Shown here: positions 20,341 through 22,560 of the stretch, one piece after another | How positions within the stretch are numbered: the first letter of the stretch is position 1 | How the letters are laid out: each line of letters opens with the position of its first letter | Source: Acidobacteriaceae bacterium | GTDB lineage: Bacteria; Acidobacteriota; Terriglobia; Terriglobales; Acidobacteriaceae | Direction of reading: 5' to 3' | NCBI GenBank assembly: GCA_003131585.1 | Contig: PKVW01000009.1 | Location: forward strand, 43,479 to 92,783 | Length of the DNA: 49,305 nt | Made by a program: the position numbers and the translations under genes | Notes under the pieces: generated by a model | The model's database searches: none | Seen by the model: only the letters and a program-made list of their open reading frames with translations | Told to the model about the DNA's origin: nothing

Positions 20341-20442
20341 CTATACCTACCCCCCCTCCCCCCTCCTCTGAATGGCTTGCTGGGCGCGGGGTTTGCAAAA
20401 AGCGTCTGCAAAATCTTGATGTCAAAGAACTTAGAGGTCAAA
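20341..20442 (+). repeat. Dispersed repeat family A, copy 3, left half
   Basis: The pyrimidine tract ctatacctacccccc followed by ctgaatgg, and the unit tgcaaaatcttgatgtcaaa with gaacttagag, match the central parts of copies 1 and 2. The repeat is cut at aggtcaaa (20435-20442), where the insertion sequence begins. Its second unit continues at 22444. Confidence 0.65.
20435..20442. repeat. Left 8-bp target-site duplication of the IS element
   Basis: AGGTCAAA is repeated exactly at 22444-22451. Eight bases is the usual duplication length for IS1595-family elements. Confidence 0.75.
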
Positions 20443-20445
20443 CAA

Positions 20446-20468
20446 GATTATTCCCTTGACAAAGGGTA
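20446..20468 (+). repeat. Left terminal inverted repeat
   Basis: GATTATTCCC followed by TTGACAAAGGGTA. The complement of the right end differs at only two positions (GATTATACCT then TTGACAAAGGGTA). Confidence 0.88.
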
Positions 20469-20500
20469 ACGATTAAGGTAATGTAGTCGCATGGTTGCCG

Positions 20501-20641
20501 TTACTCTTTTCCTTTCTTCGGTTTCACGACTGGTTCCGAGCGGAGCATCTGGCGTAAATCCTTCTTTATCCCTGCAAGTAGCTTGCGGGTCGGTATTCGC
20601 TGTAATGGTGACTTCTCCGTTCGCTTACGAGGTTCTGTCAT
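20501..20641 (-). CDS. Small basic protein (46 aa) divergent from the transposase
   Basis: The minus-strand ATG at 20641 shares the CATG with the transposase ATG at 20640, so the two start codons overlap head to head. AGGAAG stands six bases upstream. The product begins MTEPRKRTEKSPLQRIPTRK and ends PVVKPKKGKE; it is strongly basic and has no recognised domain. It fills the space between the left inverted repeat and the transposase. It could be a regulator or accessory factor of transposition, or a chance frame. Confidence 0.4.
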   Translation of the reverse strand: MTEPRKRTEKSPLQRIPTRKLLAGIKKDLRQMLRSEPVVKPKKGKE

Positions 20642-21542
20642 GACGCTTCCTGAAGTTAACTCCCTATACTCGACTGACGACCGTTGCCGAGAACTCTTGG
20701 AACGGCTCCGCTGGCCTGAAGGCGTGATGTGTCCGCGCTGCAAAGACACGCGGGTCTCCCGCCTTAAAGAGTACGCCCGGTATGAATGCGTGGGCTGCGA
20801 ATATCAATTCACCGCGACTAGCGGAACGATCTTCCATGACTCCCATCTTCCCTTGCCAATCTGGTTCGTCGCGGTGCTGCTTCTGTGCGAAGCCAAGAAG
20901 GGCATGAGCGCGATGCAACTCAAGCGCACGCTCTGGGGAATCGACAAAGGCTCTTACAAAACCGCGTGGTATCTCTGCCACAGGATTCGTGCTGCCATGT
21001 CGCAAGTAGATCGCCCGATGATGGACGGCACGGTTGAGATTGACGAAACCTATGTTGGAGGGAAGAAACGCGGAGCTTGCATCCGTGGCCGTGGCGCGGA
21101 AAAAGAAGTCGTTATCGGCATTCGCCAGCGCAGCGGTGACCTTCGGTTTTTCCACGCCAAGGACGCCAAGAGCGCAACTCTCGCTGAATACATTCGAGAG
21201 AACGTGAGCGAAGATGTAGACGTGATCGTGACGGACGAATGGTCCGCTTACCCCGATGCGATGCGCCGGACGGATAACGTTAAGAAACACAAAACGATTC
21301 GGCACAAAGGGCATGTCTACGTTGACGGAGACATCTACACAAACACCGTAGAATCGGCTTTCAGTCTCCTCAAGCGCGGCATCATGGGGACGTGGCACAA
21401 GATTAGCGCCAAGCATCTGCAAGCCTACTTGGACGAAATGACGTTCCGCTTCGACCGCCGGAAACGCTCCGATTTGTTCATCGACACGCTGCGTCATATG
21501 GTCACTGCTGATCCTCTGACGTTCGAGCGCCTGACTGCGTGA
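20640..21542 (+). CDS. ISXO2-like transposase (IS1595 family)
   Basis: From ATG 20640 the protein has 300 residues. An N-terminal zinc ribbon reads CPRCKDTRVSRLKEYARYEC..C. The catalytic DDE-type core follows with GTVEIDETYVGGKKRG, VIVTDEWSAYPD and NTVESAFSLLKRGIMGTWHKIS, all typical of the ISXO2-like domain (PF12762). A TTG 57 bases upstream extends the frame but adds sequence alien to the family. GAGG lies about eight bases before the chosen ATG. It mediates cut or copy of the element through the terminal repeats. Its 3' end overlaps the cargo gene tail to tail by 41 bases. Confidence 0.93.
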   Translation: MTLPEVNSLYSTDDRCRELLERLRWPEGVMCPRCKDTRVSRLKEYARYECVGCEYQFTATSGTIFHDSHLPLPIWFVAVLLLCEAKKGMSAMQLKRTLWGIDKGSYKTAWYLCHRIRAAMSQVDRPMMDGTVEIDETYVGGKKRGACIRGRGAEKEVVIGIRQRSGDLRFFHAKDAKSATLAEYIRENVSEDVDVIVTDEWSAYPDAMRRTDNVKKHKTIRHKGHVYVDGDIYTNTVESAFSLLKRGIMGTWHKISAKHLQAYLDEMTFRFDRRKRSDLFIDTLRHMVTADPLTFERLTA

Positions 21543-22335
21543 TAATTTTCTTATATTCTCGGCGGTACATACGCATCATCTTGGGGAGATCGGCCAAGTT
21601 TTTGTTCACGGCTTTTTCAACATCCTTCACATTGGCAGTTACGTGGGAGATCGAAGTATAGAGGTACTGAGTGAGGAAACGATCAAGATTGCTCACCAGA
21701 GCCTCGATCTTTGCCGTGGTGTCTGTTCCCCAAAAATGGGTTATGCCATCATTTTGAAGCGCAACGGCCTCCGTCTTTCCTCCGACTCCTACAACCTGCC
21801 TCTTGGTATAAAACATCATTCTTAGCCCCAAGAAAAGCATGACTTCATCTACCCCGGAAAGCTGACAGTCTCTCAGCATGGGGTGAAGCTGCGTCTCGCC
21901 CGACCCAACTGAAACGTGCGTCAGCGGCGGAACTAAGACAACTCGGTTTCGGTGCCACTTAAACAACCACGTCATGGGCCGGATATTTACAGCAATCAAC
22001 ATATCGAAATGGGGGGCATAGTCAGGGTGGGAGCCTTCGTAGCCCTGCATGGACCTTTCAAAAAACATGCCAGCGAATTCGTTGAGCACTTGAACAACTT
22101 CATCTCCCTGCTTAATTCCAGCCGCAAATAATCGATGCAACTCCTGGTTTGCACACTCGATTAGATGCGTGTCTCCAGCACCCCCAGTAAGGACGGTGCC
22201 GCTGTTATTTCCCAGTTTAAATATGAATCTCTCCAGTTTGTCACATTCAGATTTAGCATCCACTCCAAGAGATTCTTCCGTGTCAGCCATCATTAGAACG
22301 CCGTTGATATAATGCATTCCCAGAATCGCAGTCAT
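21502..22335 (-). CDS. Proteasome-type Ntn-hydrolase carried by the IS element
   Basis: ATG 22335 is chosen because AAGGAGG stands four bases before it; a longer frame to 22404 lacks such a site. The 277-residue protein begins MTAILGMHYINGVLMMADTE. After Met removal Thr1 would be exposed, Asp lies at mature position 17 (MMADTEES) and Lys at 32 (CDKLERF), matching proteasome beta Thr1/Asp17/Lys33 within one residue. TVLTGGAGDTHLIECAN corresponds to the glycine strand before helix H1. The C-terminal 80 residues are mostly helical and unlike HslV. A threonine protease or amidase is likely; target unknown. No ATPase partner is present. Confidence 0.72.
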   Translation of the reverse strand: MTAILGMHYINGVLMMADTEESLGVDAKSECDKLERFIFKLGNNSGTVLTGGAGDTHLIECANQELHRLFAAGIKQGDEVVQVLNEFAGMFFERSMQGYEGSHPDYAPHFDMLIAVNIRPMTWLFKWHRNRVVLVPPLTHVSVGSGETQLHPMLRDCQLSGVDEVMLFLGLRMMFYTKRQVVGVGGKTEAVALQNDGITHFWGTDTTAKIEALVSNLDRFLTQYLYTSISHVTANVKDVEKAVNKNLADLPKMMRMYRREYKKIITQSGARTSEDQQ

Positions 22336-22416
22336 ACGCCTCCTTACCGGAAGCCGTATTCTCGGACGCGGATGGACTGACGGCTTCGGAAACGGCTTAA
22401 TCATGCGCCGCCTCCG

Positions 22417-22439
22417 TACCCTTTGTCAAAGGTATAATC
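22417..22439 (-). repeat. Right terminal inverted repeat
   Basis: TACCCTTTGTCAA continues with AGGTATAATC and pairs with 20446-20468, 21 of 23 positions. It ends 81 bases upstream of the Ntn-hydrolase start, so that gene's promoter must lie in the right end of the element. Confidence 0.88.
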
Positions 22440-22443
22440 GTGA

Positions 22444-22560
22444 AGGTCAAAATCTAGAGAACAAAGGAGTTATGCTCGATATTGCCCTGGCTGGCTATGC
22501 TGCCTCCGCCTTGACCATGATGGGCTGATTAGATGTGGGAGGCAAGGTTAGATGTCACAG
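22444..22560 (+). repeat. Target-site duplication and right half of family A repeat, copy 3
   Basis: AGGTCAAA (22444-22451) is the right target duplication. The following agaacaaaggagttatg, tgctgcctccgcc, gaccatgatgggctg and ggcaaggttagatgtcacag match the right half of copies 1 and 2 in the same order, ending at the same cacag. Confidence 0.7.

Follow-up and report, generated by a model that had tools for sequence, protein, structure and literature searches.

A candidate cargo slot for exchangeable proteasome-like Ntn-hydrolases in IS1595-type elements of acidobacteria

Introduction

Siguier, Gagnevin and Chandler reportedly described transporter insertion sequences (tIS) of the IS1595 family in 2009. 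Insertion sequences (IS) of this transporter kind, which hold passenger genes, are documented in PMC3129680 and PMC7986276. For Anbu, the bacterial ancestral beta-subunit, PMC5666114 reports a Thr exposed by removal of Met, with no propeptide, and an operon with transglutaminase, ATP-grasp and Alpha-E genes. In 2021, Fuchs, Alva and Lupas presented 22 new proteasome homologues without telling genomic context; of the groups named there PPH and AAH occur in phages, and the main text contains neither "transpos" nor "acidobacteri" (PMC8665760). Proteasome homologues and IS with passengers are each known and their combination was not found reported: the literature searched gave no report joining "IS1595" and "proteasome" or describing a transposon-borne proteasome homologue, ISfinder being outside its scope and a prior note there possible. 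Here we analyse a window, that is, the whole stretch of 49,305 nucleotides from an Acidobacteriaceae bacterium (GCA_003131585.1, contig PKVW01000009.1, positions 43,479 to 92,783), in which an IS1595-type element carries a gene for a predicted proteasome-like N-terminal nucleophile (Ntn) hydrolase. Sequence comparisons indicate that genes of this kind recur in such elements and have been exchanged between them.

Results

An IS1595-type element with a proteasome-like passenger

The segment 20443-22443 (window positions throughout) is an IS1595-type element, 2001 bp long once the 8-bp duplication is used to fix its ends. Its features are:

20435-20442: left copy of the 8-bp target duplication (AGGTCAAA), exact
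20443-20468: terminal inverted repeat on the transposase side, 35.8 bits on the end motif
20640-21542, plus strand: IS1595 (ISXO2-like) transposase, 300 aa, with zinc ribbon and DDE domain
21502-22335, minus strand: proteasome-like Ntn-hydrolase, 277 aa, Met-Thr start, 41-bp overlap with the 3' end of the transposase gene
22336-22404, minus strand: Pro/Lys/Arg-rich in-frame leader (MIKPFPKPSVHPRPRIRLPVRRR) with its own ATG, containing the AAGGAGG at 22339-22345
22339-22345, minus strand: Shine-Dalgarno-like AAGGAGG of the downstream start
22411-22415, minus strand: GGAGG, judged by eye to be a likely ribosome-binding site for the leader
22417-22443: terminal inverted repeat on the Ntn side, 30.4 bits on the end motif
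22444-22451: right copy of the 8-bp target duplication (AGGTCAAA), exact

The hallmarks of the IS1595 family are present, namely a DDE transposase with a zinc ribbon, terminal inverted repeats and an 8-bp duplication. Pfam, run on the longer open reading frame 20583-21542, identifies DDE_Tnp_IS1595 (PF12762, 5.3e-33) and Zn_ribbon_IS1595 (PF12760, 3.2e-11), and NCBIfam identifies NF033547 (3.4e-52), all three above their cut-offs. The repeats 20443-20468 and 22417-22442 are 26 nt long and 88% complementary, and the 30.4 and 35.8 bits of the two ends compare with a maximum of 13.8 bits over 312,699 positions of a shuffled control, which used a near-identical end motif (both motifs include the window element's own ends). 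Joining the flanks through one copy of the duplication gives a 103-nt query, which matches a dispersed repeat about 80 bp long. At G000:C8:95617-95697 this repeat is uninterrupted and 94% identical over query positions 1-81, and the two half-matches in the window (query 1-60 and 53-103) overlap at query 53-60, exactly the 8 duplicated bases. By this empty-site argument, the uninterrupted target copy and the 8-base overlap point to real transposition. The genome itself holds a single full copy of the element (contig C12), its sole other match being 96 bp at 73% identity.

Inside the ends, only the transposase gene accompanies the Ntn gene, and the two lie tail to tail. We therefore place the element in the tIS kind by virtue of its passenger gene, whose unrelatedness to transposition we infer. 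A sequence-only reading of the window had described an IS1595-type element with inverted repeats, an exact 8-bp duplication and an ISXO2-like transposase, together with a convergent 277-residue Met-Thr protein with Asp17, Lys32, a GGAGD strand and AAGGAGG before its ATG; the domains, end scores and empty site bear out the former and the latter features are all present in the sequence. Its further claims, that the protein has a proteasome-like Ntn fold and lacks an HslU or Anbu partner in the element, agree with the structure prediction it had called for and with the gene content inside the ends.

Two side observations concern the target. The repeat surrounding the element (20383-20442 and 22452-22495, about 80 bp) has at least 19 matches in its own genome, two of which are the halves beside the element, and it is matched in 26 of the 45 genomes of the genus (E<=0.001).

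Predicted fold, active site and family placement

The triad of the proteasome-like superfamily consists of Thr/Ser1, Asp17 and Lys33. The window protein (P0001), read from 22335 to 21502 on the minus strand and convergent with the transposase, starts Met-Thr and has Asp at mature position 17, Lys at mature position 32 and GGAGD at precursor positions 51-55. Its AlphaFold model (pLDDT 92.2) retrieves 970 Protein Data Bank chains at E<=0.001 in Foldseek, with Anbu and proteasome beta subunits in the top rows, and displays a proteasome-type Ntn alpha-beta-beta-alpha fold. The model also carries long C-terminal helices. This C-terminus is encoded antisense to the end of the transposase gene, and it is nearly preserved in P0002 and P0003, which are 83% and 80% identical to the window protein.

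Conservation is centred on the active site. Precursor T2, D18 and K33 (mature 1, 17 and 32) are invariant in 36/36 rows of alignment A2, whose members are 15-55% identical to the window protein and in which, besides these three, only the start codon and one Gly do not vary. In the 85 rows of alignment A1, D18 and K33 are invariant and T2 is present in at least 90%. The window protein is not assigned to PF00227 by score, since it misses the gathering cut-off (17.4 bits versus 22.4); this family nonetheless matches 71/85 A1 rows at E<=0.1 (best 2.1e-08), and L040 lies above the cut-off with 25.7 bits. In NCBIfam, P0001 itself was unmatched and some A1 rows weakly matched archaeal proteasome entries, and a PHROGs search gave one match at chance level. 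The possibility of a phage or plasmid gene was set aside, since P0001 was found neither in viral contigs (by a pattern scan that reaches close relatives only) nor in plasmids or phages. As for selection, dN/dS is 0.09 for L061/L067, the sole pair of seven unsaturated at synonymous sites, and the six further, saturated pairs have pN/pS values of 0.32-0.53; these comparisons indicate that the Ntn gene is under purifying selection.

Two familiar identities were considered and rejected. The host has an HslV- and HslU-like pair (named from sequence) elsewhere, at C52, so that the enzyme of the element is not the housekeeping one; it is not HslV proper either, the element having no HslU. Nor is it Anbu proper, since the operon genes of Anbu are absent within the ends and L116, L117 and L119, which we take to be Anbu from their sequences, separate from all transposon-borne rows with 100/100 support in a tree rooted on those three. 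We nevertheless expect Thr1 to be exposed and the protein to act as a hydrolase, probably within an assembled particle like that of Anbu.

Ntn genes recur within IS1595 and IS1 elements

When 398 genomes of the family were searched by profile, 32 had a match, giving 36 rows that represent 35 distinct loci including the window. Twelve of these loci pair the Ntn gene with a full, convergent IS1595 transposase; L059 has a more distant IS1595 transposase in tandem, and this element has ends of its own and an exact duplication. Five others (L042, L050, L060, L063 and L066) have a convergent transposase of the IS1 family, and in L061 and L067 an IS1 transposase lies head to head with the Ntn gene, beside which it is placed without being assigned within ends. 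There are also five remnants (L040, L041, L062, and L051 with its copy L056) and two weak cases (L044, L058). The set was selected by the Ntn profile, and its 20/35 loci with a full transposase are thus a biased rate. Further IS1595 carriers came from a phylum search (16/396 genomes at 1e-6; L109 and L113) and from a transposase-led search (L096 and L097), which brings the IS1595 elements carrying such a gene in the acidobacterial set to 16.

These 16 carriers are consistent in structure. In each, both ends score higher than the 13.8 bits that the shuffled control reached at most (lowest 17.8), they measure 1.97-2.56 kb, and their 8-bp duplication is exact in 15/16 and 7 of 8 in L049. The end motif was built from 12/16 carriers; L096, L097, L109 and L113, which stand outside it, score 17.8-33.0 bits. 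Among the IS1-family loci, L042, L050 and L066 have PF03400 above cut-off, both ends and exact 8-bp duplications, L063 has both ends 4.9 kb apart and a duplication of 7 of 8, and L060 has one end.

A survey led by the transposase covered 50 genomes of 49 genera, in which 19 places in 9 genomes passed 1e-60. At transposase identities of at least 60%, the Ntn gene is present in 8/8 places, in six by profile and in L096 and L097 by hhalign. At 46-53% identity it is found in 0/11 places by profile, a lower bound, since the profile misses L096 and L097 too. Other searches added little: a search of genome contigs gave 2 relatives, and A1 searches at 1e-15 in the phylum (2/396 genomes) and at 1e-6 in the genus (3/45) gave nothing new. 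Of the 18 plasmid records of IS1595 and IS1 transposases (8 and 10), the 8 that were read showed no proteasome-like annotation, hypothetical proteins being outside the check and L125 unannotated.

Several side observations belong to this distribution. A wider profile search gave 543 proteins at E<=1e-6 among 7996 candidates scored. Ntn protein P0078 and transposase P0225 may share a contig, the longest contig being 219,438 bases for both, and the same holds for P0278 and P0237 (204,607 bases). L037 (6001-6834), from another species of the same genus, is about 50% identical to the window protein and has a GTG start, no leader and no transposon signs; its neighbours are presumably malate and isocitrate dehydrogenase genes. 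Finally, several relatives (L046, L052, L047, L049 and L057) sit mid-palindrome, the duplication forming the palindrome centre (GGCACG-ACTNNAGT-CGTGCC-like in L046 and L052, GTAATCGCCTGATTAC-like in L049 and L057), and some of these IS may aim at palindromes.

The cargo is exchanged between elements

Among the 16 IS1595 carriers, transposases have a mean identity of 66% (55-87) and Ntn proteins of 19% (10-34), and the two identity tables do not co-vary (Mantel rho 0.13, permutation p 0.20). In the five closest transposase pairs (82-87%), the Ntn proteins are only 14-21% identical. The clearest case is L054/L057, with transposases 87% and Ntn proteins 20% identical, in which identity at the DNA level, counted per 100 nt, is 67-91 along the transposase, falls to 19-57 and recovers to 69 in the final 100 nt, where the end lies. 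Five more pairs show the same drop less sharply, L054/L057 being the steepest of the six and WIN/L052 and L039/L047 shallow. Divergent Ntn genes beside similar transposases and ends thus indicate that the gene is exchanged between elements, those of the IS1 family included. The sequence-only reading had suggested that the hydrolase might process the transposase; since cargo and transposase do not co-vary, a transposase-processing enzyme is disfavoured.

The Ntn tree points the same way. The IS1595 label requires 13 changes against a shuffled mean of 12.7 (as low in 339/500), that is, it is not clustered. By these comparisons the gene, rather than the element, has its own history. The bootstrap of the tree had yet to settle, and 13/37 inner branches are open. 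It excludes L044, L096, L097, L056, L067, L069, L070, L118 and L120 (fragments, near-duplicates or too divergent sequences) and labels L110, with a transposase fragment 1.2 kb off, as "none".

A conserved start codon and an open leader

The search for start codons covered, close to where the profile begins, any Met, Val or Leu standing directly before Thr, Ser or Cys. The codon preceding Thr is a start codon in 35/35 loci (ATG 26, GTG 8, TTG 1). Where it encodes valine it is always GTG, which suggests that the position acts as a start codon, and a purine-rich site often lies just upstream (by eye). This agrees with the earlier claim that Thr1 becomes exposed by Met removal without a propeptide. 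The second half of that claim is unsafe, because a Pro/Lys/Arg-rich leader is open in frame before Thr1. In the window it spans 23 codons (22404-22336) with its own ATG and GGAGG. More generally, 23/26 transposon-associated loci have an open Ntn frame over the 22 upstream codons, versus 8/26 in each other frame and versus 11.6 +/- 2.3 expected (maximum 17 in 500 dinucleotide shuffles), the relatedness of the 26 loci meaning that shuffles overstate their independence. The leaders hold 278 Pro, Lys or Arg versus 171 +/- 9 in shuffles, and proline makes up 19% of them versus 6-7% in the other frames. In loci without a transposon label, a stop interrupts the leader frame in 9/17.

Some leaders start at an ATG after a GGAGG just inside the end, that of the window being MIKPFPKPSVHPRPRIRLPVRRR, and a similar leader precedes IS1-borne and IS1595-borne copies. 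We read the leader as translated with an internal start, which would yield two forms or make the leader a propeptide. In composition, the window leader (22336-22404, minus strand) appears similar to proline-rich antimicrobial peptides. Its role might be to make ribosomes stall or to govern use of the downstream start.

Other cargo in more distant elements

Several of the 11 distant IS1595 places (46-53%) have other cargo inside ends with 8-bp duplications. The IS1595 element of L105 (3861-7925), 4 kb long and flanked by an exact 8-bp duplication, carries a trypsin-like peptidase gene (PF13365, 1.1e-4, below cut-off). L108 (3902-6584, reverse complement), likewise with an exact 8-bp duplication, carries, among other cargo, DUF433 and PIN-like genes that may form a toxin-antitoxin pair. 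The cargo of L099 and L100 appears membrane-bound and has no Pfam family. On an Acidiphilium multivorum plasmid (L123, 2501-4221), convergent RES and MbcA/ParS/Xre antitoxin genes lie directly behind an IS1-family transposase, gene order being what was compared. Genes that we take to be RES and Xre also lie near the Ntn gene of L005.

Discussion

The comparisons above establish, at the level of sequence and model, a mobile element, a cargo slot, a predicted fold with its triad, swapping and selection. For the whole, we lean slightly towards the explanation that the IS1595 frame offers a slot for a swappable Ntn-hydrolase acting as a conflict or maintenance effector. The effector role, a guess from the pattern, is probable: a fixed active site, a changing body, trade between elements and peptidase- or toxin-like cargo elsewhere fit an effector for conflict or for keeping the element. 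Translation may begin at the leader's own start or at the start codon that immediately precedes Thr; removal of methionine would expose Thr1, which Asp17 and Lys32 would activate, and the protein would work as an Anbu-like assembled peptidase without a dedicated ATPase. It would cleave one specific protein, belonging either to the cell or to a competing element, to the benefit of its own element, and versions would turn over because targets differ or change. The toxin-like and peptidase genes of the more distant elements suggest, more weakly, that the slot is one for conflict genes in general. A bolder version is tentative and rather doubtful: that some IS1595 and IS1 elements reserve a slot for diversifying, self-compartmentalising single-gene threonine peptidases, conflict enzymes with their own targets, controlled through a proline-rich leader and traded under selection for novelty.

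Several points weigh against the effector explanation. First, 8/35 loci (L037, L038, L048, L053, L055, L068, L069 and L070) have no transposon sign, so that part of the family lives in chromosomes, and a survey of 50 genomes from the L063 transposase found the Ntn gene by profile in 1/19 IS1 places (two of the 19 being at contig edges). Second, the 8/8 count includes L096 and L097, both missed by the profile and recognized with hhalign probabilities of 83% and 93%, and in L096 Ser replaces Thr. Third, the tree gives less than full mixing: the IS1 label is slightly clustered (6 changes versus 7.5 shuffled, as low in 47/500), all five labels jointly are clustered (16 versus 20.8, 0/200), partly via the Anbu-like group, and the single starred IS1595-IS1 pair (L062, L051) consists of two remnants with families assigned by their ends. 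Fourth, PADLOC defence families match neither P0001 nor any of the 36 A2 rows, and a known defence protein was rejected on this basis. Lastly, the fast turnover could be neutral exchange, and the peptidase activity and assembly of the protein are predicted from sequence only.

Among other explanations, it is unlikely that the gene is a passenger, neutral or useful to the host, which was acquired time and again from a large pool of chromosomal proteasome-like genes and is spread by the IS without serving it. Relatives without transposon signs, such as L037 (same genus, about 50% identical), and the other kinds of cargo in more distant IS1595 elements would be expected of such a passenger. However, the 8/8 closest surveyed elements hold an Ntn gene and not mixed cargo, the copies borne by IS1 and by IS1595 have similar leaders upstream, and the triad together with the one usable dN/dS value indicates selection. 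That the hydrolase regulates its element, processing or degrading the transposase or a host transposition factor and so setting transposition rates, is a less probable account still. Its presence in 8/8 surveyed places of one IS1595 subgroup and the tail-to-tail overlap, both of which suggest a tie to the transposase, speak for it, but they must be set against the absent co-variation (Mantel p 0.20), the Ntn identities of 14-21% beside the five closest transposases (82-87%) and the association of the same superfamily with an IS1-family transposase. We think it improbable that the Ntn site serves a reaction other than proteolysis, such as peptide ligation or an amidase step. Proteasome homologues do include the ligase connectase (PMC8665760), and the lack of an ATPase partner and the strong divergence outside the active site would suit such a role, but the model, by our reading, has no long connectase-type insertion among the first strands, and Anbu and proteasome beta are its nearest folds. 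Finally, a chance neighbour caught between unrelated repeats, which the single full copy in its own genome might have suggested, can be dismissed in view of the 16 elements with matching ends and target duplications, several IS1 elements besides and the uninterrupted target copy, in line with the original view of the gene as cargo.

If the bolder version is true, a transposon-borne branch of the proteasome superfamily serves conflict and not housekeeping, and its versions are exchanged in the way that toxins or defence genes are among other mobile elements. A group of uncharacterised proteasome homologues gains a telling genomic context, a slot in a small transposon that is kept while its contents change, and cargo is seen to pass from one IS frame to another very like it as well as from one IS family to another. 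This raises the questions of what ATPase-free proteasome-like enzymes cut and why a minimal transposon pays for one.

The closest described systems each share part of this picture. The divergent prokaryotic proteasome-like proteins with an intact active site of Fuchs et al. (PMC8665760) are comparable to the protein itself. Anbu (PDB 5nyw, 5nyg, 5lox) provides the best Foldseek matches of the window model, but at 13-16% identity, and the Anbu-like rows branch apart (100/100, on the tree rooted on them). Unlike the 20S proteasome beta subunit and HslV, the hydrolase has long C-terminal helices and comes from an element with neither alpha subunit nor ATPase inside. With the tIS of the IS1595 family the element shares the ISXO2-type transposase, the inverted ends, the 8-bp duplication and a passenger inside the ends, whereas a proteasome-like passenger, and a slot refilled by divergent members of one superfamily, were not found described there. 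The toxin-antitoxin pairs of Tn3-family transposons (PMC7157771) are likewise small cargo genes kept inside the ends next to the transposase, the difference being that the slot described here holds a single peptidase-like gene with no antitoxin partner.

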